Source: Gemmatimonadota bacterium (GTDB taxonomy: Bacteria > Gemmatimonadota > Gemmatimonadetes > Gemmatimonadales > Gemmatimonadaceae). Taken from it: a DNA stretch of 64,000 nt. The translations under genes and the position numbers were made by a program. The notes beneath the pieces were generated by a model. The model was not told where the DNA came from. It saw only the letters and a list, made by a program, of their open reading frames with translations, and made no database searches. The stretch lies in contig JACPPC010000021.1 in the NCBI GenBank assembly GCA_016191225.1, positions 1-64,000 of the forward strand, written 5' to 3'. Of the stretch, positions 571 through 14,952 are shown piece by piece (within the stretch, counting starts at the first letter, position 1; each line of letters opens with the position of its first letter).

Positions 571-1545
571 TCAGATCTCCCAGTTGCTCAGCACGACCCC
601 CCGCTCCGGGCGCTGCTCGGCAAACCCGTGCAGGGTCATGCGCAGGTCGCTCCACCGCACGCGTGCCCCCATGCCGACGAGGGTCCGGTGCAGCCCGGAG
701 TATTCTCCCTGCACGCGGAAGGCCACCCGCCGCGTGCCGCTGCGCCGCGCGAAGTCGGCGAGCGCGATTGCCATCCGCTCCCCGTCGGTCTCGTCGGCGA
801 GCACGAGCTTGAGCACCCGCAGTTCCTCCCGCGCGCGCCCCTCGACCAGCGGCACCGTGTGGCAGATGGCGAATCCCGCCAGCGTGTCGCCACGGCGGAG
901 GAGCACGGTGTCCCCGCAGGACAGTTCGTCGGTGAGCTGGAGCTCGCGCGTGAAGTCGTACCCCGGCACGAGCTGGCCGACGAGGGCGCGGCAGGCGGCG
1001 ATCATTGCCGCCTTGTCGGTCGGGGTGAGCGCCCCGAGGAGCAGCGGCGAGCGCTCGGCTCCGGCGGCGTCCACGGTGAGCGTGAGGGTGAGCCGCCCGG
1101 GCACGAACCCGAGCCGCGAGTAGAACCCGATGTTGTCGAGGGTGCGCGGCATCGTCTCGAGGCCCAGCGTGTGGACGCCGAGCTGTCGCAGCCGGTCCAC
1201 GCCGGCGTGCACGATCTCCTTGCCGATCCCGTGCCCCTGCAGGTCGGGGCGCGCGGCCAGCGGCCCCATCCACCCCTCGGCCCCCGACGCGTGCGCCACG
1301 TTGAATGCCCCGATCTCCCCGCGGTCGTCGCGCCACAGCATCGCCCCCGCGCCGGCCCCCTCGATCGCGTAGCGCCAGATCAGCGGGTTCAGGAACGGGA
1401 CGCGCACCCCCACCAGGCCGTCGCGCCGGTACCGCTCCGTGAACGCGTCGCTGAACACGCCGTTGAGCGCGGTGATGTCGGCGAGCCGCACCGGGTAGGG
1501 GCCGTCGAGCGGCCCCTGCGTGCGCAGGTGGCGGGCAGTCGCCAT
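571..1545 (-). CDS. GNAT family N-acetyltransferase
   Basis: A 324-residue protein. The N-terminal half (about 20-165) is a GNAT fold: the acetyl-CoA pyrophosphate-binding motif A is visible as Arg-Pro-Asp-Leu-Gln-Gly-His-Gly-Ile-Gly near residues 99-108, followed by the beta-bulge and a typical 'NIGFYSRLGFVPGR' segment. The C-terminal half (about 165-324) looks like a second, weaker GNAT-like domain, so it may be a tandem-GNAT protein. The acceptor substrate cannot be told from sequence. The start codon shares its A with the sbcC stop (TGATG), so it is translationally coupled as the last gene of the DNA-repair operon. A role in DNA repair is not implied by the family; this may be passive linkage. 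Confidence 0.8.
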   Translation of the reverse strand: MATARHLRTQGPLDGPYPVRLADITALNGVFSDAFTERYRRDGLVGVRVPFLNPLIWRYAIEGAGAGAMLWRDDRGEIGAFNVAHASGAEGWMGPLAARPDLQGHGIGKEIVHAGVDRLRQLGVHTLGLETMPRTLDNIGFYSRLGFVPGRLTLTLTVDAAGAERSPLLLGALTPTDKAAMIAACRALVGQLVPGYDFTRELQLTDELSCGDTVLLRRGDTLAGFAICHTVPLVEGRAREELRVLKLVLADETDGERMAIALADFARRSGTRRVAFRVQGEYSGLHRTLVGMGARVRWSDLRMTLHGFAEQRPERGVVLSNWEI

Positions 1546-4001
1546 CAGGCGGCCCCGAGGCCGGCGAGCTCCGCCCCGGCGTCGTCGTCCGGCGCCGTGA
1601 TGGCCTCGCCCCGCGTCACGTCCGATGCCCCGGTCTCCTCGTTGTACCGCACGCTGATCACCCGGTCGAGTCCGTCGCGCACGCCCTCGATGTGCGTAAT
1701 CACGATCACCTGTTCGAAGCGATGATGCAATGACCGCAGCAGCTCGAGCACGTGCTGCCGCCGCGACTCGTCGAGCGACCCGAACACCTCGTCGAGGATC
1801 AGGAGCGAGAACGACTGCCCCGACCGCTCGGCGATCATCTGCGAGATCGCGAGGCGCAGCACGAGGTTGGCGAGGTCCTCCTCGCCCCCGGAAATCACCG
1901 GCTTGGGGACGCCGTCCTCGCGCACCGACAGGGCGTAGTCCTCGTTCAGTTCGAGCTCGCCGTAGCGGGCGTCGGTGAGCTCGCTCAGGAACTGGCTGGC
2001 GATCTCGGACAGCTCCGGCCGCAGTTGCGCGTTGAGGTCGGTGCGCACGTCCGAGAAGGCCCGGTCGAGCTCGTCGTGGAGCCGCTTCTCCCCCTGCCGC
2101 ACGGCGAGGCGCTGCTGCGCCGCCGCCAGCTCGGCCTGGGCCTGGGCCGCGCGGGCCGCCTCCACGCGGGCCGCCTCGGCCTCGCCGCGCGCCGCCACCG
2201 CGTCGAGCTCGGCGGTGCGGGCGGCCTGCTGCGCCTCCTCGTGCCGCGCGCGCAGCGCCGCGTACTCGGCGTCGCCAAGGAGCGGCGCGCCGATGCCCGC
2301 CGCCAGCGCCGCCATGCGGCCCCGCACGGCCATGAGGTGCGCCGTCACACGGTCGCGCTCGCGCAGGAGCTGCGGTTCGCGATCCACCTGCGCGCCGAGG
2401 CGGGCCTGCCGGGCATCGAGCGGCGTGAGGCGCTCGATCTCCCGCCTGACCGCCGCGTGGCGCGCCGTGTCGTACCCCGCCGGCAGGCTGTCGATGTCCC
2501 GCCGCAGCCCCGCGTGCCGCTCCTCCTTGGCGTGGATGTCGCGCCCCAGCTGCGCCAGCTCCTGCACCGCGCTCTGCACCTTGGCCAGGCGCCGCTCCTG
2601 CGCCCCCGCCTCGAGCGCGAGGGCGCGGCGCTGTTCGTCGAGCGCGCGGACCTCCTCGGGCACCTCCTGCAGCTGCTCGAGCCGCCGCTTGAAGAAGTTG
2701 CCGTCGACCATCACCGTCTCGAGCTGCGCGTCGAGCACGTCGAGCACCTGCCGGTAGTGGTCCCCGAGCGGGCGGGCGCAGGTCGGGCAGGTCCCCTCCT
2801 CGCCGAGCGCCACGATCCGGTCGCGCTGCTCCTTGGCGTCGCGCCACTGCTTGAGCAGGGCCTCGCGCCGGGTCTCCGCCTCCTGGCGGTCGCGCACCCA
2901 CTCGGTGCGGCGCGCCTCGAGCTCCGCGAGCATCGCCTCCACCGCGTGGCGCTTCTGCTCGAGCTGCACCGTGGCCTCCTCCTCGAGCGCGGGAGCGGTG
3001 CTCACGCGCTCCCGGCGGTCGCGCAGCCGCGCCAGCTCGTCGGCCAGCACGCGCTCCTCGGCGAGCAGGGTGCGGCGGCGCCCCTCCTCGCCGGCGAGCG
3101 CGTTGAACTGCTGGATCTCGACCATCAGTCCCGGCAGCGGGGCGAGCTCGGTGGCGAGGGCCTCGAGCTCGGCGCGCGCGGCGGCGACCTCGTGCAGGTC
3201 GCGGGCCAGCCGCGCCACGTCGCGACTCAGTGCCGCCTCCTCCCCCTGCCCGACCCGCCGTTCCGTCTCGGCCTGCTGGGCGCGCTCGCGCTCGGCCTGG
3301 GCGCGCGTCCACTGCGGGGCGACCGCGGCGAGCGCCCGTGACGCCCCGGCGAACGCCTCCTCGGCGACCGCCAGCCGCCGGTCGGCGGCGCGGCGGCGGT
3401 CGTCGGCCTCCTGCAGCTGGCGGGCCACCACGGCCGGGTCGGGAAGCCCCTCGCGCAGCACCGCGATCTCGGCCGCGATCACCTTGCGGCGGTCGCGGAC
3501 GAGCGCCTGCGCCGTGCGCAGCCGTTCGTACCCGAGCACACGGGACAGGAACTGCGCCCGCTCGGTCGGCCCCATCGCCGCCATCACGTCGAGTTCCTTC
3601 TGTCCCGTGAAGTAGGTGTTGAAGAACTCGCTGCGCGTCATCCCGAGCCGCCGCTGCAGCAAGTCGCCGACGGCGGTAATCGAGTTGGCGATCGGCTCCG
3701 CGCTGTCGTCGAGGTAGAGCTCGGCGCTGGTCAGCCCGCGCACCACGCGAAAGCGGTGCGCCCCGAGCTCGAAGCCCAGCTCGACGCGCACCGACGACCG
3801 GGCCGGCGCGCGCGAGAACCGGATCGAGTCGCGCGTGCCGCGGGCGGCCGCGTTGCCGTAGAGCGCCCACGCGATCGCCTCGAGCACGGTGCTCTTGCCC
3901 GAGCCGTTGGGGCCGATGATGCCGGTCAGCCCGCCCTCGAACTCGAACAGCGAGTCGGCGTGCTGGCGGAAGTTCACGAGCTGGAGCCGGTTGATCTTCA
4001 C
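1545..4001 (-). CDS. sbcC: SbcC/Rad50-type DNA repair ATPase
   Basis: An 818-residue SMC-like ATPase, partner of the SbcD nuclease in DNA-end and hairpin processing. Visible parts: N-terminal ATPase half with Walker A GPNGSGKS at residues 30-37; long Ala/Glu/Arg-rich coiled coils; a zinc hook CPTC at about residue 404 in the middle of the coils; and the C-terminal half with the ABC signature ISGGEEDLANL, Walker B LLILDEVFGSLDE and a D-loop. It is nearer in length to archaeal/Thermus Rad50 than to E. coli SbcC (about 1050 residues). GTG start at 4001, overlapping the sbcD stop by 4 nt, with GGAGG a few bases upstream. Third-last step of a nurA-herA-sbcD-sbcC string. Confidence 0.93.
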   Translation of the reverse strand: MKINRLQLVNFRQHADSLFEFEGGLTGIIGPNGSGKSTVLEAIAWALYGNAAARGTRDSIRFSRAPARSSVRVELGFELGAHRFRVVRGLTSAELYLDDSAEPIANSITAVGDLLQRRLGMTRSEFFNTYFTGQKELDVMAAMGPTERAQFLSRVLGYERLRTAQALVRDRRKVIAAEIAVLREGLPDPAVVARQLQEADDRRRAADRRLAVAEEAFAGASRALAAVAPQWTRAQAERERAQQAETERRVGQGEEAALSRDVARLARDLHEVAAARAELEALATELAPLPGLMVEIQQFNALAGEEGRRRTLLAEERVLADELARLRDRRERVSTAPALEEEATVQLEQKRHAVEAMLAELEARRTEWVRDRQEAETRREALLKQWRDAKEQRDRIVALGEEGTCPTCARPLGDHYRQVLDVLDAQLETVMVDGNFFKRRLEQLQEVPEEVRALDEQRRALALEAGAQERRLAKVQSAVQELAQLGRDIHAKEERHAGLRRDIDSLPAGYDTARHAAVRREIERLTPLDARQARLGAQVDREPQLLRERDRVTAHLMAVRGRMAALAAGIGAPLLGDAEYAALRARHEEAQQAARTAELDAVAARGEAEAARVEAARAAQAQAELAAAQQRLAVRQGEKRLHDELDRAFSDVRTDLNAQLRPELSEIASQFLSELTDARYGELELNEDYALSVREDGVPKPVISGGEEDLANLVLRLAISQMIAERSGQSFSLLILDEVFGSLDESRRQHVLELLRSLHHRFEQVIVITHIEGVRDGLDRVISVRYNEETGASDVTRGEAITAPDDDAGAELAGLGAA

Positions 4002-5203
4002 GGCCCCTCCTCCTCGCCCACGGCGGCCGGCGCCACCACGTCTTCCGCCTCGCGCAGGTACTGGAGGCCGAGGGCGACCAGCGCCTCGCGGTCGATGTCG
4101 GCCTCGAGGGGGCGGGCGTGGAGCCGGTCGCGGAGGGTCTCGGCGAGCGAAGGACGCCGCCCTGGGGCCCCCGAGATCGCCGTGAGCCGGATCGGCTCGG
4201 GCCGCCGCGCGTCGAGGTGGAAGTGCAGCGCCCGCTTGCGGTAGTCGCGCAGGGCCGCGTGGTCGAGCTCGCGGGCCACGTGCCGCGGGATCTCGTCGAC
4301 CACCAGCCGCACGATCGCGTCGTCGATCTTCGCGCGTGAACGCTCCACGGTGGCGCGGATCGCCGCGTCCACCGACTCGGGGGAGAGGCCGCGGGCGTTC
4401 ACCGGCGGGAGGTCGATCACCTGCCGCACGGCCTCGATCGCGTGGGGCGTGTGCTTGCCGGTGGCGAGGTTGTGCTCGACGATCCGCTTGCCGGGGAGCT
4501 TCGCATCGCGCTCCTCGCGCAGCTCTCCCCAGATGTTCGGGCTCGTGTACTCGGTCGAGCCCGAGTAGTACACCGGCCGGCCGGGGACGACCTGCCGGTA
4601 CACGTGATAGTGGCCGAGGGCGCCGTAGTCCCACTTGCCCGCCGCCAGCTCGGCCGGGGTGTAGCCGGCGGTGGCCCGGTCCACCGGCGCCGCGTGCATC
4701 GGGATCACGCCATCCACCTCGCCGTGCAGCAGGAGCACGTTCCACCGCGCCCGCGGGTCGGGTTCGAGGCGGGGACGCACCATTCCCACCACGTCGGGCA
4801 CGGCGAGGATCGACAGCTCGCGATCGGGGAACGACAGCCGCTCGGCACCCTTGTGCACCACATGGATGCCGAGTTGCGCGAACAGCGTGAGAATGCACAC
4901 GGTCTCGCTGGAGCGTGGCGCGTCGTGGTTGCCCGCCACCATCACCACCGGCGCTTCGGGGAGCGCCGTCACCAGTCGCTGGAACTGGCGGACGGCGTGC
5001 AGGAGCGCCTGGTTGGTCGGCCGCACCGTGTGAAAGACGTCGCCGGCGATGAGCACGAGGTCCGGCGCGAGCGCGATCGTCCGGTCGATGGCGCGCGTGA
5101 AGGCCTGCGCCACGTCGGCCTCGCGCTGGTTGAGGCCGTTGGGGTTCGTGCGCTGGTACTGGCGAATCCCGAGGTGCAGGTCGGCGAAGTGGACGAGCCG
5201 CAT
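3998..5203 (-). CDS. sbcD: SbcD/Mre11-type DNA repair nuclease
   Basis: A 401-residue calcineurin-like phosphoesterase, the Mn-dependent exo/endonuclease subunit of the SbcCD (Mre11-Rad50) complex. The metal-site motifs are all present: D8-x-H10 (FADLHLG), GD55, GNHD at 91-94, H160 in LLHGE, and the H198-x-H200 pair in GHYH. A C-terminal capping/Rad50-binding region of about 130 residues follows. The ATG at 5203 gives the standard MRLVHFADLHLG start. It begins only 3 nt after the herA stop codon and its own stop overlaps the sbcC start, so herA, sbcD and sbcC are almost certainly on one message. Confidence 0.95.
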   Translation of the reverse strand: MRLVHFADLHLGIRQYQRTNPNGLNQREADVAQAFTRAIDRTIALAPDLVLIAGDVFHTVRPTNQALLHAVRQFQRLVTALPEAPVVMVAGNHDAPRSSETVCILTLFAQLGIHVVHKGAERLSFPDRELSILAVPDVVGMVRPRLEPDPRARWNVLLLHGEVDGVIPMHAAPVDRATAGYTPAELAAGKWDYGALGHYHVYRQVVPGRPVYYSGSTEYTSPNIWGELREERDAKLPGKRIVEHNLATGKHTPHAIEAVRQVIDLPPVNARGLSPESVDAAIRATVERSRAKIDDAIVRLVVDEIPRHVARELDHAALRDYRKRALHFHLDARRPEPIRLTAISGAPGRRPSLAETLRDRLHARPLEADIDREALVALGLQYLREAEDVVAPAAVGEEEGP

Positions 5204-5206
5204 CGG

Positions 5207-7174
5207 TCAGGGGCCGTACGGATCGTCGTCGGGCACACGGCGCACGGCACGGGGCCGCGTCGCGGCGGGCGCCGGCTCCCGCGCCGGCGCCCGCCCCCGC
5301 AGCGCCCGCTGGAAGTACTCCCGCACGTTCGCCGGCCGCTCGCGCAGCGCCGCGTGCCGCACCCGCAGCACCTCCTCTTCGCCGTGCAGCGCGACCAGGT
5401 CCTGCGCCCACGCCAGCGGGAGCGTGTCGTCGAGCGGCTTCAGCGCGCGCAGCAGCGCGACCTCGACGCCGGGCTCGGCCGCGGGGGGCCACCGCTCCAT
5501 CCCGTCGCGGCCGCGGCACACCGCCGGCCGCGGGAAGCGCACGAAGATCGGCTGCGTGAAGTGCGGGTGCCGCACCATCAGCTGCCCCTTCTCGAGCGTC
5601 GCCAGCCGCGTCCGAACCGCCGGCGAGAGCACGGCGTACCCCGGCGTCGCCAGCTCGTCGGCGTCCATCCGGCCGAAGAGCGCCGTGCCCGCGTTGCCGA
5701 CCACGCGCCGGTGCACCTGCGACCGGAACTGCTGCGCGCTGAACAGCACCAGCCCCAGGTAGCGGCCCCGCTCCGCGATGTCGAGCAGCATCCGCCGCAC
5801 GTAGGTATCAGGGCCGTCACTCGCCGCGTAGCGGTTGAGCTCGTCCACGAACACCACCACCTGCCGCACGCCAAGGTCGCCCCGCTCGAGGTGCTCGCGC
5901 AGCATGCTGATCACCCGGGCGAAGATCAGGTCCTGCGCATCCTCCTCGAGGTTCGCCACGTCCACCACGTACAGGCCGCGGTCGTCGAAGGCGCCCCACG
6001 GCAAGTCGCTCACCACCCCGCCGTCGGTCACCAGGCCGGCGCAGCGCGTGGCGATGTTCACGAGCCGGTTGCGCACCTTGCGGATCGTCGCCACGTGGTG
6101 CGTGCGCCACCCGTCCTGGTTGCGGCTCTCCATCCCCCGCAGCAGGTCGCGAAACCACGCCTCGAGGCCGGCGAAGGTGCTCACCGTGTGCGGCTGCGAC
6201 AGCACCTCGTCGCTGAACAGCTGGTCGAGCACCCGCTCCTTGACGAAGTCGATCAGCGCGTCGGCCTTGGCGTCGACGTCGTCGCGGTTGAGCAGCACCT
6301 CCGCGTACTGCAGCACCTCGCGCAGCCCCCACGTGAGCGGCGAGACGTTGTGCTGCAGCGCCTCGTGGCTGCGCAGCGTGTCGAGCGACATCCCCCCGGC
6401 CGTGAGCGGCGCGAAGTACCGCACCGCCGCGAACGGCTCGGCCGGCACGCCCAGCTGCTCGTGCATCGCCCGGTCGGCATCCTCGAGCGCGCCGGGCTGG
6501 TCGAGGAACAGCAGGTCGGGGCCCTTCACGTTGAAGCAGACCGCCGCGACCGGCCCCTTGCTCGCCGGGAAGTGGGCGAAGATCGACGCCAGCAGCCACT
6601 CCACCGCGCTCGTCTTGGTCGCCAGCCCCGACACGCCGCTGATGTTGCAGTGTGCCGCCTCGGGGCCCACGAGAAAGTCCGCGTCGAGCCAGATCGGCGC
6701 GTCGGTGCCGCCGGCGCGATACACGCCGAGCGGTATCCCGGTCTGCGCGCCCTCGGCGAGGTACCCGTCCATGCGCAGCGCGACCGACACGTCGGCGGCC
6801 GAGGCGAGGAAGACCTCGCCCAGCGGCACCGGCTGCAGCGGCTCCTCGGGGACGTGTCGCAGCACCGCCGCCGTGTACAGCCGGATCTCGGTGCGGTGCG
6901 TCGGCGCCGCTCCCGGCCCCGCCGGCCGGCCGTCGAACCCGAGCACGTCGTGCAGCGGCGTGGCGAGGTCGGAGTACGACAGCCCGTCCGTGACCACGCC
7001 GTAAATCACCGGCCGCACGCCGAGCACGGCCTGCGTCCCCGCCACGCGCACGATCGTGCCGATGCCCACCGGCGAGTCGAGCGCCGTCCAGAAGTGGAAC
7101 TCGTGCGGCGTGTTGGGGCGGCGCTCGGTCGCCACCACCCGTCCCAGCGGGGCGGCAGGCGCGGAATCCGTCAT
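5207..7174 (-). CDS. herA: HerA-type hexameric DNA translocase/helicase (DUF87)
   Basis: A 655-residue protein of the FtsK-HerA ATPase superfamily: an N-terminal HAS-barrel-like region (about 10-135), then the P-loop ATPase core. The P-loop is unusual, GVSGLATKTS at 180-189, with the lysine at 187 in place of the common GSGKS form. Walker B is VVVFVDELN, and a downstream segment on Arg-rich strands and 'FSAQQFRSQVHRRV' corresponds to the sensor/arginine-finger region. In archaea HerA threads DNA for the NurA nuclease during end resection. Start chosen at the ATG 7174: a -10-like TATCTT ends 6 nt before it, which suggests an internal leaderless promoter in addition to read-through from nurA (61-nt gap). 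Confidence 0.85.
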   Translation of the reverse strand: MTDSAPAAPLGRVVATERRPNTPHEFHFWTALDSPVGIGTIVRVAGTQAVLGVRPVIYGVVTDGLSYSDLATPLHDVLGFDGRPAGPGAAPTHRTEIRLYTAAVLRHVPEEPLQPVPLGEVFLASAADVSVALRMDGYLAEGAQTGIPLGVYRAGGTDAPIWLDADFLVGPEAAHCNISGVSGLATKTSAVEWLLASIFAHFPASKGPVAAVCFNVKGPDLLFLDQPGALEDADRAMHEQLGVPAEPFAAVRYFAPLTAGGMSLDTLRSHEALQHNVSPLTWGLREVLQYAEVLLNRDDVDAKADALIDFVKERVLDQLFSDEVLSQPHTVSTFAGLEAWFRDLLRGMESRNQDGWRTHHVATIRKVRNRLVNIATRCAGLVTDGGVVSDLPWGAFDDRGLYVVDVANLEEDAQDLIFARVISMLREHLERGDLGVRQVVVFVDELNRYAASDGPDTYVRRMLLDIAERGRYLGLVLFSAQQFRSQVHRRVVGNAGTALFGRMDADELATPGYAVLSPAVRTRLATLEKGQLMVRHPHFTQPIFVRFPRPAVCRGRDGMERWPPAAEPGVEVALLRALKPLDDTLPLAWAQDLVALHGEEEVLRVRHAALRERPANVREYFQRALRGRAPAREPAPAATRPRAVRRVPDDDPYGP

Positions 7175-7180
7175 CCGGGA

Positions 7181-7186
7181 AAGATA
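7181..7186 (-). promoter_or_regulatory. -10-like TATCTT directly before herA
   Basis: On the minus strand TATCTT is followed by six bases and the herA ATG, so a transcript from it would start at or next to the start codon. No good -35 hexamer is present at 17 nt. The same hexamer recurs before other genes in this window. Confidence 0.4.
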
Positions 7187-7235
7187 GCGTTGCCCCTCCC
7201 CCACGGCTGCACGGCGGCGTGCGGCCGGTCGCCGG

Positions 7236-8267
7236 CTACAGCGACGCCCGCAGGAACTCCTCGCAGTCGCGGATCGGGTACACCATCACGTCCCACCGGC
7301 TGTCCGGCAGGGCGAGGGGGCGCGACTCGGCGAGGACCATCCGCGACACGGCGTCGGCCCGCGCCGCGAGCGCCACGCCATCGCCTCCCGGCGCGTGCGC
7401 CGCTTCCACCCGCACCAGCCCCCACAGCGGATGCCGCCCGGCGGGATCGCGCAGGCGCAGGTACCATGTGGCCACGCTCACGCGCGTGGCGGAGGTGCGC
7501 TCGAGCACGCTCGACCGTTCGCCCGCCGCCAGTGCCAGCACCACGCGCAGCGCCTCACCGGCCACCTGCAGCTCCCGGTGGCTCTTCACCACGCCGGTCA
7601 CGGCCGGCGAGCGGCTGGCGGCGTCTCCCGGCAGCGGGCCGTCCACGCAGAGCGCCCCGGGGCCCCGCTCCACCCAGGCGTCCGCCAGGCGGCGCTCCAT
7701 CGCGCCGCGATGCTCGCGAATCGCGTCGCAGGCCGCGCGCTCCAGTTCCAACGGGTGAGGCCCGGCCGACCGGTCGACCGCGCGATCCCTGCGGCCGGCC
7801 AGCGTGTCGGCGATCGCGAACCCCCGCTCCTCAAACTGCGCGGGGACATCCGCCGGCAGGAGCGCCAGGGGCAGGTACACCCGCGTCTCCCGGGCGAAGC
7901 CGCCACCCCACGTGCGCAGCCGGCCCTCGTGGCGCTCGCGCACCACGGCCGCCACGGAGCCGAGCACGATCGGCGCGGCGTCCAGGTACCCGACCCGTTC
8001 CGTGCGCTGGATGCCGTCGAGGAAGGCGCCGAACGTCGCGTCGGGCTCGCCCGCCACGCGGTGCGCACGCACCGTGTCGCCCTCGATCACCCGCGCCGGC
8101 GAAAGCCGCGCCTCGTCGCGCGCGTCGCGCGCGACCTCCATCGGCGCCCCGCCCGCCCCGCTCACCAGCGCCCGCGGCGACGCCGCGCCGAGCGTGCGCC
8201 GCGCCATCGCCAGCAGCGCCGCCTGTCCCGCCGCGGCGCCCGCCGCGGCGCCCGCCGGGACAGTCAC
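7236..8267 (-). CDS. nurA: NurA-like 5'-3' nuclease (putative)
   Basis: A 343-residue protein that I assign to the NurA nuclease family with moderate confidence. Family-like landmarks: FLDG with Asp84 (first catalytic acid position), CVDG with Asp209 (second acid), the nearby GVVKSH with Lys228, and a C-terminal 'YPIRDCEEFLRA' that resembles the YP..L..A ending of NurA. The N-terminal 20 residues are Ala/Gly-rich. The assignment is supported by position: it lies immediately upstream of herA, the usual NurA partner, and upstream of mre11/rad50 homologues. It starts 4 nt after the stop of the AsnC-domain gene. The canonical DGS triplet is DGI here. Without the context this would be a hypothetical protein. 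Confidence 0.6.
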   Translation of the reverse strand: MTVPAGAAAGAAAGQAALLAMARRTLGAASPRALVSGAGGAPMEVARDARDEARLSPARVIEGDTVRAHRVAGEPDATFGAFLDGIQRTERVGYLDAAPIVLGSVAAVVRERHEGRLRTWGGGFARETRVYLPLALLPADVPAQFEERGFAIADTLAGRRDRAVDRSAGPHPLELERAACDAIREHRGAMERRLADAWVERGPGALCVDGPLPGDAASRSPAVTGVVKSHRELQVAGEALRVVLALAAGERSSVLERTSATRVSVATWYLRLRDPAGRHPLWGLVRVEAAHAPGGDGVALAARADAVSRMVLAESRPLALPDSRWDVMVYPIRDCEEFLRASL

Positions 8268-8271
8268 GCGC

Positions 8272-8550
8272 CTACTCGACGCCGATGTCCCACGCCTGCT
8301 CGAGGTCGCCCTTCGAGTAGGCGCGGAACGCCGTCAGCGTCTGCGTGCGCTCGATGCCGGGCACCTTGGGGAACTCCTCGGTCACCACCTGCGCGATCTC
8401 GTCGTACTCCGTCACCCGCACGATCACCACCAGGTCCCACGGACCGGAGACCGAGTAGACCTCGCGCACCCCGTCGATCCCGGCCAGCGCCGCTCCGCAC
8501 TCGGGCACGCGCTTGGGGTGGGCCTTCACCAGCACGATCGTCGTGATCAT
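8272..8550 (-). CDS. stand-alone Lrp/AsnC ligand-binding (RAM) domain protein
   Basis: A 92-residue protein that is only the RAM/AsnC_trans_reg alpha-beta sandwich: 'MITTIVLVKAHPKRVPECGAAL', a GVREVYSVSGPWDLVVIV strand-turn-strand, and a C-terminal 'IERTQTLTAF' strand. The DNA-binding helix-turn-helix of full Lrp proteins is absent, so it probably oligomerises and binds a small ligand, often an amino acid, rather than DNA. The start ATG overlaps the upstream stop by 4 nt, and the next gene (nurA-like) begins 4 nt downstream. What it contributes to a repair operon is not known; the aminotransferase two genes upstream is the more natural partner. Confidence 0.85.
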   Translation of the reverse strand: MITTIVLVKAHPKRVPECGAALAGIDGVREVYSVSGPWDLVVIVRVTEYDEIAQVVTEEFPKVPGIERTQTLTAFRAYSKGDLEQAWDIGVE

Positions 8551-9047
8551 GGCGCACTCGTGAACGGGGGCACGTTGCAGAGCCACACACCGGTGATGGC
8601 GTCGTGGCGGTCGAGGTCGAACAGCACGTCGGAGCCCACGCGCACCGTGCGCGTGCGCCCCTGCGACAGCACAAAATGGATCGTCTTCTCCGACGGATCG
8701 GACTCGGCGCGCAGCGGCGCCGTGACTTCCATCGTCGCGATCCCGGGCTGCGATGAGCGCGCCGGCACGCTCAGCGACACCGCGGCGACGTCCGCCGGCA
8801 CCGCCAGTCCCTTCACCGTGCGCACCTCGGGCCAGACCGCCACCTCGATCGAACAGATCCGCCCGCCGTCGACCTCCAGCACCAGCCAGGAGCCATCCTG
8901 TCCCTCGAGCTCGATCGAGCCCGTCAGGCCTCCCGGTCCGGGGCCGCCGGCGATCTCGGCCGAGAGGATCTCGGTGTCCGCGTCCCAGCGGAAGCGCACA
9001 CCAGGTGGGGCGCCCTTGAGCGAGGCAACATGGACGTGGACGCTCAC
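8547..9047 (-). CDS. conserved beta-rich protein with DUF2283-like repeats (weak)
   Basis: A 166-residue soluble protein with no signal peptide. It seems to hold two copies of a short beta unit: 'FRWDADTEILSAEI' near the N-terminus and 'VGSDVLFDLDRHDAITGVWL' at the C-terminus. These resemble the two ends of DUF2283 (YD.eaDvLyI ... iDld..G.ivGIei), so I suggest a distant relation, weakly held. GTG start at 9047 (the only reasonable start that leaves the first strand intact). It lies 13 nt after the aspartate aminotransferase stop and overlaps the AsnC-domain gene by 4 nt. Function not known. Confidence 0.65.
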   Translation of the reverse strand: MSVHVHVASLKGAPPGVRFRWDADTEILSAEIAGGPGPGGLTGSIELEGQDGSWLVLEVDGGRICSIEVAVWPEVRTVKGLAVPADVAAVSLSVPARSSQPGIATMEVTAPLRAESDPSEKTIHFVLSQGRTRTVRVGSDVLFDLDRHDAITGVWLCNVPPFTSAP

Positions 9048-9060
9048 GCGACCGCCCCGG

Positions 9061-10296
9061 CTACCGTGACGACCGTCCGGTCCGCCACGCCGAGACGATC
9101 CGGCGCAGCCCCTCCAGCACGTCAGCCGTCGGCGCCGCGTACGACATCCGAACCCAGCCCGGCGCCCCGAACGCGTTCCCGGCCACCACGGCCACGTCGT
9201 GCTGCTCGAGCATCGTCGCCGCGAAGGCGGCGCCGGCACCGTCGGGGCCGCGGGCGGCCGCGCTCACGTCGAGAAAGAGGTAGAACGCGCCCGCCGGGTG
9301 CACCGCCGGCGGCGACTCGCCGCCGGCGAGCAGCGCGAGGCAGGCATCGCGCCTCGCCCGGAACTCGGCCACCATCGCCGCGATCGCCGGCTCCGCCTCC
9401 GCCGGCCGCGTCAGGGCCGCCAGCGCCGCGTGCTGCGACACGGTCGCCGCGTTCGACGTCGTGTGCGACTGCAGGTTGCCGATCGCCTGCGCGACGGCGC
9501 GTGGTGCCACGGCCCAGCCGATCCGCCAGCCGGTCATGGCGTACGACTTGGCGACGCCGTCGACCACCACCAGCCGGTCTCGCTGCGCCGCCACCTCGAA
9601 CGCCGACGCCGCCGGCCCGTCGTAGGCGATGCGCCGGTAGATCTCGTCCGAGATCACCCACCAGTCCCGCTCGGCCGCCAACGCAAGGATCCCGGCCAGC
9701 TGGTCGCGCCCGTACACCGCCCCCGTCGGGTTGCAGGGCGAGTTGAGCATCAGCCCGCGCGTCCGCGCCGTCGCCGCACGCGCCAGGGCATCCACGTCGG
9801 GCAGGAGCCCGTCGGCAAGGCGCCCGGGCACCGCCACGGCATTGGCCCGCGACAGTCCCAGCATCTCGTAGTAGCTCACCCACGCCGGCGTCGGCACCAG
9901 CACGTCGTCGCCCGGGCCGAAGAGCACGAAGCAGGCGTTGAACAGCGCCTGCTTGGTGCCGTTCCCCACCACGATGTCCCCAGCCGCCACCGGTGCCGCA
10001 CCGGCTGGCAGCAGCGCGTTCGCCCGCGACGCGATCGCCTCCCTCAGCGGCAGGATGCCCTCGGTCGCGGTGTAGCGCGTCGCGCCGGCGTCGAGCGCCG
10101 CCTTGGCGGCGTCGCGGATGAAGGCCGGCGTGTCGAAGTCCGGCTCGCCGGCGCCGAGGTCGATGATCGGGCGCCCCTGCGCCCTGAGCGCCTTCGCGCG
10201 CGCGGAGGCGGCAATCGTGGCCGACTCGCGGAGCTGCGTGATGTTGCCCGATGGCACAAACGGCGCAGCCGTCGCGTCGGCGGCGGTGAGCGTCAT
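9061..10296 (-). CDS. aspC: aspartate/aromatic aminotransferase, class I
   Basis: A 411-residue PLP-dependent fold-type I aminotransferase, most like the prokaryotic aspartate aminotransferase subgroup Ib: 'DLGAGEPDFDTP' near 46-57, the NSPCNPTG loop at 185-192, the SDEIY motif, and the Schiff-base lysine K250 in DGVAKSYAMTGWRIG, followed by the phosphate-binding arginine. It would interconvert aspartate and oxaloacetate with 2-oxoglutarate/glutamate; a prephenate-aminating role is possible in this subgroup. First gene of the long minus-strand operon that continues into nurA-herA-sbcDC. Divergent from the DEAD-box-like gene with a 95-nt intergenic region. Confidence 0.88.
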   Translation of the reverse strand: MTLTAADATAAPFVPSGNITQLRESATIAASARAKALRAQGRPIIDLGAGEPDFDTPAFIRDAAKAALDAGATRYTATEGILPLREAIASRANALLPAGAAPVAAGDIVVGNGTKQALFNACFVLFGPGDDVLVPTPAWVSYYEMLGLSRANAVAVPGRLADGLLPDVDALARAATARTRGLMLNSPCNPTGAVYGRDQLAGILALAAERDWWVISDEIYRRIAYDGPAASAFEVAAQRDRLVVVDGVAKSYAMTGWRIGWAVAPRAVAQAIGNLQSHTTSNAATVSQHAALAALTRPAEAEPAIAAMVAEFRARRDACLALLAGGESPPAVHPAGAFYLFLDVSAAARGPDGAGAAFAATMLEQHDVAVVAGNAFGAPGWVRMSYAAPTADVLEGLRRIVSAWRTGRSSR

Positions 10297-10327
10297 GGAT
10301 GTGGGAGCGAAGGGGGCGGCGGGCGGC

Positions 10328-10333
10328 TATCTT
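10328..10333 (+). promoter_or_regulatory. -10-like TATCTT between aspC and the DEAD-box-like gene
   Basis: TATCTT lies in the 95-nt divergent intergenic region, 58 nt before the ATG at 10392, in a locally AT-rich patch (10327-10351) that stands out from the GC-rich flanks. No clear -35 pairs with it. The patch probably contains promoters for both directions. Confidence 0.3.
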
Positions 10334-10391
10334 TGCAGATTGCAATGTTACCGACGCGGCCACGGCCGCGCCATTTCCTGCAGCCGACGTG

Positions 10392-11915
10392 ATGACCACC
10401 AGCCGTGACGACACCGCCGCCGCGCCTCGCGCGCAGCCGGTGCTGCATACCCTTTCGCTCGACCCCGCCTCGCTTGCCGCCGCCACCGGCCCCGCGCTCG
10501 ACCGGGCCGATGCCGCCGCCGGCGGGCTCCAGGTCCTGATCCTCGTCCCCGACCCCGCTCTCGGCGTCGCCACCGCCGAGCGGCTGGCCGATGCCCCCGT
10601 GCGGGTGGTCGCCGCCACCAGCGCCCGTCGCGGGGCGCGCCTCCTCGCCGAGGGGGCCCCCGCCGCGCTCGCCATCTCCCTCGACGATGCCCTCGCCCTC
10701 CTGCGCGCGTCGCAGCTCAAGCTCGAGCCGCTCCGCGCCCTCGTGATTGGCGGCGCCGACGAGCTCCTCGCCAGCCGCGCCGAGGCCCTCGAGGCGTTCC
10801 TCGCCGACGTGCCGCGCGAGGCGCTGCGCATCGCCACGGCCGCCCGCGTCGGCGAGGGCTTCAAGGCCTTCGCCGAGCGCCACCTCCGCCGGGTCCGGCT
10901 CGAGGCCGGCCCCGCCGGCGCCCCGCTCGAGTCGCCGCTGCACGTGCTCACGGTGGCGCATGGTGCGCACGCCAGCGCCCTCCGGTCGCTCCTCGACGCG
11001 CTCGATCCGCCGTCGGCGGCGGTGGTGGTCGAATCCGATGCCGCGGCGACGGCCGTCGAGGGGGCGCTGCGCCCGCTCGGCCTCGGTGGGGCCGGCTCCA
11101 GCGTCACGGTCGTGCGCGGCGACGCCATTCCGTCGCACGCCGCGCTCGTGGTGCTGTTCGACGTGCCGGGCAGCCGCGACGTGCTGCACGCCGTGGCCGC
11201 GGCCACCCCCGTGCGCGCCGTGGTGCTCGCCGAGCCGCGCGAACTCGGGCGCCTCGCCGCCCTCTCGGGCGGCGCCCTGCTGCCGCTCGACATCGCGGCC
11301 GCCGCGTCGGCCGCCATGCGCCGCCACGACCTCGCCTTGCGCGAGGAGATCGCCGCCGTCCTCGCCACCGGGCTTCCGCTGCGCGAGCTGGTGGTGATCG
11401 AGCCCCTCCTCGCCGCCCACGACGCGGCCACCATCGCGGCCGCCACCCTCCGGCTGCTCGAGAGTGCGCGCGCCCGGGCGCCGCGAGCCGCCGCCGTTGA
11501 GTCGCCCGTTACGCCGGCGGCTCCCGCCGCGGCACCGGCATTCGTGCGGCGCGACCACGACCGCGACGACCAGCCGCGTGGTCCCCGCCGCGACGTGACG
11601 CCGCGAGATCGCGGAGACCGTCCGCCGCGACGCGACCGGGGTGACCGTGGCGACCGGCCCGCCCGGTCGAATGCGCCACGCGAGGGCGCACGCGGCGACC
11701 GTTCCGTGCGCGGCGACCGCCCGGATCGCGGCCCCCGCCCTGGCCCCCCGCGCGACCGCATCGGCGCCCCGCTCCGCGATCGCGACCGCGGCGAGGGCAC
11801 GCGCGGCCCGGCGCGAGGCCCGCGCGGCCCCGCCGAGGGTGGCGACCGGCGCGAGTGGTCCGACCGCGGCGAGGCGCTGCGCCGCAGCCGCAAGCCCCGG
11901 CGGGAGGATTCGTGA
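10392..11915 (+). CDS. degenerate DEAD-box helicase-like protein with RGD-rich tail
   Basis: A 507-residue protein. Its first 340 residues follow the plan of a two-domain DEAD-box RNA helicase without catalytic motifs: a '[31 protein letters not shown]' stretch sits where helicases have motif Ib and the DEAD box (GGAD replaces DEAD), followed by a segment like motif III ([10 protein letters not shown] instead of SAT), and a second domain with strands like VVVESDAA and VVLFDVP where helicase motifs IV-V would be. No Walker A lysine is visible. The tail from about residue 375 is low-complexity, rich in Arg, Asp, Gly and Pro (RDRGD repeats), as in RNA-binding helicase tails. Probably a non-catalytic RNA-binding paralogue. 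Stop overlaps the tdk start. Confidence 0.6.
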
Positions 11916-12562
11916 GCGGCTCGTTCCAGATCGCCGGCGGATGGATCGAGGTCGTCGTCGGCGTCATGTTCAGCGGCAAGAGCGAGGAGCTGATGCGCCG
12001 GGTGCGGCGCGCGATCATCGCCCGCAAGCGCATCCAGGTGTTCAAGTCGCACCTCGACGAGCGCTATGCCGGCGTGCTCGCCGTCAGCAGCCACGACGGC
12101 CGCACGATCGACGCGTTCCCGGTGGACTCGTCGGCGCAGATCGCGCAGCGCATCGATCCCACCGCGCAGGTGATCGCGATCGACGAGGCGCAGTTCCTCG
12201 ACCGGGGGATCGTGCAGGTCGCCGCCGATCTGGCGGGGCGCGGACGGCGGGTGATCATCGCCGGGACCGACACCGACTTTCGCGGCGAGCCCTTCGGGCC
12301 GATGCCCGACCTGCTCGCGACCGCCGAGCTCGTCGACAAGCTCCACGCCATCTGCGTGCTCTGCGGCGCGCCGGCGAGCCGCAACCAGCGGCTGATCGAG
12401 GGGCGGCCGGCGAGCTGGGACTCCCCCACGATCATGGTCGGCGGGCACGAATCGTACGAGGCCCGCTGCCGCGCCTGCCACGTCGTGCCCCGGTGCGACG
12501 AGTCACAGGTCGCGATCCCCTTCGGCGTCACCGCCGAGGGAATGCGTCACTCGGGCCGGTAG
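11912..12562 (+). CDS. tdk: thymidine kinase, type II
   Basis: A 216-residue thymidine kinase that phosphorylates thymidine in the salvage pathway. P-loop GVMFSGKS at 17-24, Walker-B-like IDEAQF, the '[15 protein letters not shown]' lasso region, and four zinc-binding cysteines in CVLC and CRAC...RC arrangement. GTG start at 11912, overlapping the preceding stop (GTGA), with a strong GGGAGG at 11902-11907 inside the end of the upstream gene. The first ten residues are specific to this protein. Followed by a hairpin terminator. Confidence 0.95.
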
Positions 12563-12572
12563 CCCGGGAACG

Positions 12573-12608
12573 CGCGGGGGCGCCGCCCTCGCGGGCGACG
12601 CCCCCGCG
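12573..12608. terminator. GC-rich hairpin between convergent tdk and pilX-like gene
   Basis: Arms 12573-12582 (cgcgggggcg) and 12599-12608 (cgcccccgcg) are perfectly complementary, and the loop contains a further nested inverted repeat (cgccc / gggcg). It lies between two converging stop codons and has no T-run, so it is best read as a bidirectional stop. Confidence 0.65.
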
Positions 12609-12630
12609 TCTCGCCGGCGGCGCGCGCCGC

Positions 12631-14952
12631 CTAGCGCCCGGCCGTCAGGTGCTCGAAATACTCCGTCACCCCGAGCCGGTTGAACTTCACCGGGTCGATC
12701 TCGTAAAACCGGTTGTCGATGTACCGACCGGTCGTCGGGAAGTACGGCGGTGGCCGCGTCGCCGCGCACCGGTCGTAGGCGTACCGCTTCACGTACCCGG
12801 TCTGGCCGAGGAGGGCGACGATGCCGCGCGTGTCCATCAGCAGCCCGCCGGTCAGGTTCAGGCACCCGCGTCCCGAAAGGCTCGTGCCGCACGTCGCCGC
12901 GGTCGCCGCGATCGAGCCGCCGCGATACCCCTCGTTCCGGAACGCATCGTCGAGCGTCATGATCACCGCGTGCAGCGTGAGGCCGACCGTCGGCGACGTC
13001 GTGGGGTCGAGGAGGTTCGGGTACTCCGCCGGCTTGGCAGCGGGAAAGCCGGGGCTCATGCTCTTGAATTCCGCGTTGGGAATGCTCGGCGCGGGCGCGA
13101 CGAAGGCTTGCGGATCGAGCAGCGCGTTGTCGGCGATCGTCACGTTCCTGGAGGCGATCAGGCCGAGGATGTCGCGCTCGCCGAGGCAGTCGGCCCCGGC
13201 CGGGCTGATCGCGTACCGCGTGTTGTCGACGATCACGATGTTCCCGCCGCTGGCGTACATCGTGATGCGCCCTCGCACCACGCCGCTGACGCCGATCGAA
13301 CCGTCGACCTGGATCACGCCGCGCGAGCCCGGGTTGATGCCACGGTACAGCGGAAAGAGGTAGTTCGCGTCGTTTCGCCTCGCCGGTCCCGAGGTGAGCC
13401 GGCCGTCGATCGTGCCCGGGTACGTGCGCCAGGCGCTGAAGCGCCCGCTCGCCGTGAACGTCGTGTCCGAGCCGCCCTTCTGCCACGTCGTCGAGTCGGT
13501 GCCGCCCATCTGGTAGCGCTCGATCGCCACCAGGTGCGGGTCCCCGCCCAGGTAACAGCGCGGCACCCCTTCCGACTTGCCGTCGGCGTTGCGCATCAGG
13601 CGCCCGGCGAGCGAGGCCGAGGGGTGCACGGTGTGCGAGTCGCGCCCCGCCGCCAACATGGTGACCGGCGGGCCGCCCTGCGCGACCGGCTTGGTGAGCG
13701 TGTCGCGGAACCACTTCATCCGGTGCACGGACAGCGGGAAGAACTGCTTGTGGCGCCCCGAGCCGAACCCCGGCGCCCCCAGCGTGTGCCAGTCGCCGCA
13801 GTTGTTCACGCGGCGGGACGAGACCGTGTCCCACCGCGTCAGGTAGGTGGACAACCCGGCAGCCGTCGCCTGCGGCCCCGTCCAGACATCGACGGGGTCG
13901 CCGCGAATGTAGCGCCCCATCTCCGTCGCCGTCGTGGGCGGCTTGGGCTGCAGCGTGTCGCCTCCCGTCATGCCGGCACCGCTCCAGCCGGCGGGAAGCG
14001 CGGCCGGCACCGTGATCGGTGTCGCCCGCCCGTCCACCACCCGGAAGAAGCCGTCCTCGGGGTCGGTCACCGAGCCGTTGTTGCCGATGTCCCAATTCGT
14101 GAACTCGAGCCGCGTCGTCACCAGGAAGCTCGTATCGGTCGGCGTGTACGACGCCGACGGCGGCGTCACGTACGGCGTCATCGTGAGCGCCGTGAACAGG
14201 AAGTTTGCCGGCGAGGCGTACCCGCTCAGCGTCGCCAGCTTCGCGTCCGTCGGCAGCGGGATGCCCGGCATGTTGATCTGGTAGCCATACGCCGAGAAAG
14301 CCGCGCACGACGGGTTCTTGATGATCTTTGCCGTCTGCACCTGGTCGCGGAAGGACGCGACAGGGCACGTGCCGGTGTTGATGCTGATCGTGTCGTTCGA
14401 GAACACGGGGCCGTAGATCACGTCGCCGCCGCCGAACACGATCGTGCCGCCGGTGGGGAATTTCTCGCGCACCGAGAAGTAGGCGAACTTCGCGAAGGTC
14501 TCCTGTGCCAGCTCGAGGCGCCGCACGTAGCGCGCCCCCGAGCCATCCGTGGCCTCGGCAACGATGCTCGCGAACGAGCCGTCCTGCCCCGACGTCGAGC
14601 CCGTCGGGCCGGCGTACAGGTTCACGAGCACGCGCGGCACCACCGCGCCGTCGGCGCCGGTGATCGTCGCCCCGCTCATGATCGTCGTGTATCCGCTGTC
14701 CGGCAGGGTGAACAGGCCGCCGCTGAGCTGGCTCTTGGCGATCCCCAGCGCCGCCTCGGCGCCGTAGCGGTAGTCGCGCTCGCGGTCGTAGGAGCTGCCG
14801 ATCAGCGCGGCGTTGCCGGTCATGTAGATCGCCCCCATCGCCATCGCGGCGAAGGCGACCGTGAGGATCATCGTCAGGATCAGCGCCACGCCGCGGCGCG
14901 GCTGCACGAGTCGCGGCGGGCGGCGGGCGGGGACGTGCGCGGAGTGCGGCAT
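12631..14952 (-). CDS. PilX-like type IV pilus assembly protein, very large
   Basis: A 773-residue protein with a PilX N-terminal: a basic leader, then RRGVALILTMILTVAFAAMAMGAIYM, the single hydrophobic helix (about residues 20-45) without the Glu5 of classical pilins. Classical PilX is about 170-200 residues; here a long extracellular part follows, with polar Gly/Asn/Thr/Ser-rich beta strands ('VIQVDGSIGVSGVVRGRITMYASGG') that look like a right-handed beta-helix and a few Cys residues. It is the last gene of the minor pilin operon, 13 nt after the PilW-like gene. Probably a minor pilin carrying a large display or adhesion domain; the distal role is inferred. Confidence 0.7.
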   Translation of the reverse strand: MPHSAHVPARRPPRLVQPRRGVALILTMILTVAFAAMAMGAIYMTGNAALIGSSYDRERDYRYGAEAALGIAKSQLSGGLFTLPDSGYTTIMSGATITGADGAVVPRVLVNLYAGPTGSTSGQDGSFASIVAEATDGSGARYVRRLELAQETFAKFAYFSVREKFPTGGTIVFGGGDVIYGPVFSNDTISINTGTCPVASFRDQVQTAKIIKNPSCAAFSAYGYQINMPGIPLPTDAKLATLSGYASPANFLFTALTMTPYVTPPSASYTPTDTSFLVTTRLEFTNWDIGNNGSVTDPEDGFFRVVDGRATPITVPAALPAGWSGAGMTGGDTLQPKPPTTATEMGRYIRGDPVDVWTGPQATAAGLSTYLTRWDTVSSRRVNNCGDWHTLGAPGFGSGRHKQFFPLSVHRMKWFRDTLTKPVAQGGPPVTMLAAGRDSHTVHPSASLAGRLMRNADGKSEGVPRCYLGGDPHLVAIERYQMGGTDSTTWQKGGSDTTFTASGRFSAWRTYPGTIDGRLTSGPARRNDANYLFPLYRGINPGSRGVIQVDGSIGVSGVVRGRITMYASGGNIVIVDNTRYAISPAGADCLGERDILGLIASRNVTIADNALLDPQAFVAPAPSIPNAEFKSMSPGFPAAKPAEYPNLLDPTTSPTVGLTLHAVIMTLDDAFRNEGYRGGSIAATAATCGTSLSGRGCLNLTGGLLMDTRGIVALLGQTGYVKRYAYDRCAATRPPPYFPTTGRYIDNRFYEIDPVKFNRLGVTEYFEHLTAGR

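Follow-up and report, generated by a model that had tools for sequence, protein, structure and literature searches.

A probable DNA-end-processing operon of the NurA-HerA-Mre11-Rad50 type in a Gemmatimonadaceae genome

Introduction

The linkage of herA, mre11, rad50 and nurA in archaea has long been known (PMC2288612), the same four families being co-located in Sulfolobus, Thermococcus and others. Among bacteria, Deinococcus and Thermus have known nurA-herA pairs, and the order nurA-hepA(herA)-sbcD-sbcC has already been described in Oceanithermus profundus (PMC5448004). An earlier sequence-only reading of the locus studied here, which presented the module as one known in archaea, was therefore correct about the archaeal linkage but too narrow. 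The closest solved relatives of the proteins are those of the Deinococcus radiodurans NurA-HerA pair (7f6d), in which alanine mutants of NurA residues D53, K201 and R309 lose all nuclease activity and the key HerA residues are K175, T176, D220, D487 and E488 (PMC9960219). That pair has been presented as a minimal machinery that lacks Mre11-Rad50 (PMC12977600), whereas in the present locus Mre11-Rad50 is encoded in the same operon.

The cellular job of HerA-NurA is contested. For the Thermococcus proteins, the authors doubted a part in resection and suggested that the complex acts otherwise, for instance in antiviral degradation (PMC12977600), and Deinococcus cells lacking both nurA and herA showed higher, not lower, resistance to mitomycin C and high-dose UV (PMC9960219). 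RecBCD and AddAB, whose proteins are unrelated to NurA-HerA, are presumed to do the same job, unwinding and cutting double-strand ends processively.

A search of the literature collection used here for NurA and HerA in Gemmatimonadota found no relevant paper. In this phylum the pair lies within the Mre11-Rad50 operon in most species of an order and is cleanly missing in close relatives; as it is present or absent in sister species, often without detectable RecBCD/AddAB, the question of resection versus degradation becomes testable. The kind of module is known, and what is added here is the phylum, a divergent NurA subfamily overlooked by standard annotation, extra conserved genes and two arrangements of the set. 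The four families and their order are those of Oceanithermus profundus, both sets being known from their genes alone, but the organism belongs to another phylum, the set is enclosed in an aat-DUF-AsnC...GNAT operon, and its NurA is beyond Pfam recognition.

Results and Discussion

Organization of the locus

The window, that is, the whole stretch of 64,000 nucleotides that was analysed, has a G+C content of about 73% and comes from a genome of 3.04 Mb with a completeness of 93%. Named relatives of its nurA gene are nearly all from Gemmatimonadota, including Gemmatimonadaceae, Roseisolibacter and Gemmatimonas. Positions 571-10296 hold eight minus-strand genes in the order aat, a 166 aa gene, an AsnC-type gene, nurA, herA, sbcD, sbcC and a GNAT gene (Table 1). 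The NurA-like, HerA, SbcD and SbcC genes were all found to be consecutive on one strand, as had been read from the sequence alone, and the other genes named in that reading were right, except that the 166 aa gene had been overlooked. Its description of overlaps or tiny gaps holds for most adjacent genes, which share a start-stop tetranucleotide or lie 3-13 bp apart (about -4 to +13 bp), but not for nurA and herA, which are separated by 31 bp if herA begins at its GTG or by 61 bp if it begins at the ATG. Immediately before the more likely ATG of herA, at window positions 7171-7190 (minus strand), lies GCTATCTTTCCCGGATG, which looks like a leaderless -10 element and might give herA a promoter of its own.

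Among the genes upstream of nurA, aat gave aspartate aminotransferase as its best NCBIfam match, under the cut-off, and its linkage to the operon was seen in many relatives. The 166 aa protein matched no Pfam family above cut-off; its gene shares an ATGA overlap with the AsnC-type gene, and homologues 37-59% identical to it are encoded between aat and nurA in relatives. The AsnC-type protein has a RAM domain without a DNA-binding domain, and its gene is found upstream of nurA in most loci of family f1, with identities of 64-84%.

Table 1. Genes of the operon, in order of transcription.
Gene or product	Position in window	Strand	Remarks
aat, aspartate-type PLP aminotransferase	9061..10296	-	First operon gene; PF00155 1.6e-67
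166 aa protein, no assigned function	8547..9047	-	Read from sequence
AsnC/Lrp ligand-binding (RAM) domain protein, 92 aa	8272..8550	-	PF01037 3.3e-15
nurA, predicted NurA-family nuclease, 343 aa, divergent bacterial subfamily	7236..8267	-	Profile and predicted fold
herA, Deinococcus-type HerA translocase	5207..7204	-	Likelier start ATG 7174, 655 aa
sbcD/mre11, Mre11-type phosphoesterase, 401 aa	3998..5203	-	PF00149 1e-12
sbcC/rad50, Rad50 ATPase, 818 aa	1545..4001	-	SMC_N, AAA_23, SbcC_Walker_B
Tandem GNAT acetyltransferase-like protein, 324 aa	571..1545	-	Last operon gene; PF00583 3.6e-11

Identity of the NurA protein

The guess that the protein at 7236-8267 is NurA was borne out by its family profile, its predicted fold and its essential residues. 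As a single sequence it matched no Pfam or NCBIfam model, and a search of its own genome with PF09376, the check that had been proposed, found nothing; by PF09376 alone, NurA would have been wrongly rejected. A homologue was found in 42 of 60 relatives, and that of G046 matched PF09376 directly. When a profile of 20 relatives' homologues (A1) was searched against the whole PDB, the top two matches were Deinococcus NurA (7f6d, 7.6e-6) and Thermotoga TM1739 (1zup, 2.8e-4), with no other convincing match beyond these, so the absence of any relation to NurA, named beforehand as what would speak against the guess, was not what was seen. The same profile also picks out, in other families, NurA genes that lie close to herA. 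A broader alignment to which other-family NurA sequences had been added (A5) matched 7f6d at 6.6e-29 and 1zup at 8.6e-20 over nearly the full length, E-values that are helped by the intermediate sequences in the alignment.

An AlphaFold2 model of the protein (pLDDT 87) gave four significant Foldseek matches in the PDB, all of them NurA from Deinococcus (7f6d_G), Thermotoga (1zup, chains A and B) or Sulfolobus (2ygk), with TM scores by query length of 0.45-0.58 (RNase H-like fold). In the A5-based alignment, drNurA residues D53, K201 and R309 correspond to window residues D84, K228 and R324, numbers that were counted along the alignment with a 20-residue tag offset fitting all three. K228 and R324 were invariant and D84 was conserved in at least 90% of 20 sequences; together with E191 and D209 (VDGPL), these conserved residues, D84 lying in motif I (FLDG), are the candidate active site. 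By homology and modelled fold, the protein is thus a real member of the NurA family, from a divergent subfamily that standard annotation misses.

HerA, SbcD and SbcC

HerA matched drHerA (7f6d_B) with an E-value of 2e-43 in two stretches (phmmer), the homology covering the N-terminal and RecA-like domains. The five key drHerA residues correspond, in GTG-start numbering, to K197 and T198 of the Walker A motif GVSGLATKTS, D230, and D454 and E455 of Walker B, all of which were invariant in 12 HerA homologues. The unusual Walker A motif is of the Deinococcus type (GISGVATKTS) rather than defective. The best PDB matches of SbcD were archaeal Mre11 (1.9e-13) and those of SbcC archaeal Rad50 (3.6e-31), the latter protein also matching the NCBIfam Rad50 model at 2.6e-55, under the cut-off of that model. 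The phosphoesterase motifs of SbcD are present, as are both ABC ATPase halves, a short coiled coil and a CPTC zinc hook in SbcC, the start of sbcC lying inside the end of sbcD. Both proteins score under the cut-offs of TIGR00619 and TIGR00618, which points to a divergent subfamily. Judged by sequence, NurA, HerA, SbcD and SbcC are all genuine members of their families with intact predicted catalytic motifs.

Proposed function

The locus probably represents a bacterial operon, in a Gemmatimonadaceae genome, for the processing of DNA ends by NurA, HerA, Mre11 and Rad50, this function being likely by analogy, with a role that is disputed even in archaea. On the model of Deinococcus and archaea, Mre11-Rad50 would first open blocked or hairpin ends, after which a HerA hexamer would drive the duplex, starting at its end, into a NurA dimer for cutting, and the product would be a 3' tail for RecA, loaded through RecFOR, that feeds recombination. 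In most of the HerA-positive close relatives, those in which RecBCD/AddAB was not detected, the module may serve as the chief enzyme for the processive resection or degradation of ends, beside RecJ.

Conservation of gene order

Twenty loci of relatives were picked by NurA match alone. Directly downstream of nurA, herA was found in 19 of them (gaps of 6-132 bp by aligned ends), and sbcD-sbcC-GNAT continued in 18, in many after one extra gene; most had AsnC-type and DUF (166 aa) genes upstream. As the order recurs in 18 of 20 loci chosen only for their NurA match, it is far from chance, and the recurrence across related genomes on which the sequence-only reading had been made to depend was observed.

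An order of this kind might nevertheless reflect only the co-regulation of housekeeping genes, with NurA-HerA and SbcCD acting separately and resection being carried out by RecJ with a RecQ-type helicase. The aat, AsnC-type, DUF and GNAT genes do share the operon, some of the genes are unlinked in four genomes (G005, G032, G174 and G181), and other genomes are without the pair. RecJ was found in 55 of 60 relatives, where RecF and RecO are also nearly universal, so that another resection route exists. This account was considered unlikely, however, as the four genes are clustered again in G068 (family f5; L151, C1:2014000-2033000, 6777-13532), with other subfamilies, including a distinct HerA subfamily, and in the other order herA-mre11-rad50-nurA, with overlapping frames and nurA last. 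This is the common archaeal order, from which the window differs in having nurA-herA-sbcD-sbcC and bacterial-type sequences. The repeated clustering of the four genes, in G068, in archaea and in Oceanithermus, points to a functional link.

A removable nurA-herA pair

Among 200 Gemmatimonadota genomes with a completeness of at least 90%, HerA was found in 129 and NurA in 117, all of the latter also having HerA; in the f2 genomes G040, G048 and G052, HerA was present and NurA was not recognisable. In G023, G024, G026, G037, G041, G042 and G045, nurA-herA was missing and the remaining operon was in place, reading aat-DUF-AsnC-43 bp-sbcD-sbcC-GNAT in G045 and aat-DUF-29 bp-sbcD-sbcC-GNAT in G037. 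It was thus shown that nurA-herA behaves as a removable pair within the aat-DUF-AsnC-sbcD-sbcC-GNAT operon. Two genera (g23 and g24) contain genomes both with and without the pair, so that recent loss (or gain) is frequent.

Such patchy presence within a genus is like that of optional modules, and nurA-herA could be chiefly a DNA-degrading defence module that destroys both strands, as in HerA-Sir2 and HerA-DUF4297, and rides in the sbcCD operon. The antiviral function suggested for Thermococcus HerA-NurA (PMC12977600) favours this explanation, as do PADLOC matches of HerA to mad8 (3e-9) and of SbcC to mad3. These matches, however, are weak and at superfamily level, reflecting shared ATPase families. 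Moreover, nurA-herA is single copy, tightly packed with Mre11-Rad50, and located at one fixed chromosomal operon site beside aat and sbcDC across two families, where no mobile or defence island was visible. A defence module was therefore judged rather improbable, and DNA-end processing together with Mre11-Rad50 remains the preferred reading. That the 7236-8267 protein is unrelated, leaving HerA, SbcD and SbcC as the sole genuine members of the set, is hardly credible, since the failure of the single sequence and of PF09376 in its own genome is answered on homology by the profile and fold searches, the direct match of the G046 homologue and the essential residues kept.

Relation to RecBCD and AddAB

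The sequence-only reading had also supposed that the bacterium might resect ends with this module rather than with RecBCD or AddAB alone. The PDDEXK_1 model (PF12705) had no match in the window's own genome (93% complete), compared with matches in 12 of the 14 genomes used as controls and 18 of the 47 HerA-positive relatives (none in the other 29). Some of these matches are Cas4-Cas1 or short nucleases, and the model scores the RecB of this lineage at only about 28-33 bits, so that RecB may be missed. A fused Cas4-Cas1 protein is encoded in G042 (L067 7131-8849), with similar ones in G005, G013 and G054. A RecB-, AddA- or AddB-type protein was found in 10 of 48 HerA-positive near genomes, own genome included, and in 5 of 13 HerA-negative ones (Fisher p 0.28). 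No such enzyme was detected in 38 of the former, in agreement with the supposition, but ten carry both systems and 8 of the 13 HerA-negative genomes have neither. Replacement of RecBCD/AddAB by the nurA-herA module is accordingly suggested but not demonstrated.

Strict mutual exclusion was also considered. It is favoured by RecB in the HerA-less G024 and G026 and weakened by RecB in the HerA-positive G005, G012, G017 and G027, AddAB and RecB occurring in a minority of the same families and sometimes alongside NurA-HerA. In f1/f2, strong full-length matches to the AddB of the lineage were confined to HerA-positive genomes, the opposite of exclusion, the match in G205 being weaker. Over the 200 genomes, HerA and any PF12705 match occurred together in 57, HerA only in 72, PF12705 only in 64 and neither in 7, an inverse association (Fisher 3e-11) that is lineage-driven and so cannot be read as independent events. 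Points against the preferred reading are that the pair can be lost without harm to the lineage's persistence and that RecB or AddAB accompanies it in the ten HerA-positive near genomes, besides the near-universal RecJ, RecF and RecO of the relatives. RecJ was not found in the window's own genome, which is probably an assembly gap, since RecJ is present in 50 of the 51 good genomes in the set. In G079 (L154 2659-15280), addB-addA lies beside a convergent herA...nurA cluster, two end-processing systems thus adjoining.

The GNAT gene and other linked genes

An AF2 model of the GNAT protein (pLDDT 92) matched the tandem-GNAT structures 3ddd, 3tt2 and 7q3a. Its identity across relatives is 46-74%, above that of NurA, with conserved motifs GLETMPRT..NIGFY and a C-terminal SNWEI. 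The gene follows sbcC in 18 of the 20 NurA loci and also in loci without nurA-herA, which makes its product a candidate SbcCD partner. To our knowledge, the archaeal set includes neither GNAT nor AsnC neighbours; here the two proteins are probably encoded next to the set for shared regulation, and their participation in the complex is conjectural. A bolder proposal, that in Gemmatimonadaceae without RecBCD/AddAB the four-gene operon would be the principal double-strand-end resection machine, with the tandem GNAT as a dedicated fifth component, appears quite improbable; if true, it would make an archaeal-type pathway the default throughout a bacterial order.

Many relatives have an extra gene between herA and sbcD, which is absent from the window. 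Its product, about 260-300 aa long, has an N terminus resembling a signal peptide and belongs to a family with LRPRVGDTLRMRLDQ; the gene was seen in L032, L033, L035, L036, L037, L038, L040, L043, L044 and L045, as well as in the nurA-herA-less loci of G023, G024 and G026. The family represents a predicted exported protein encoded inside a DNA-repair operon.
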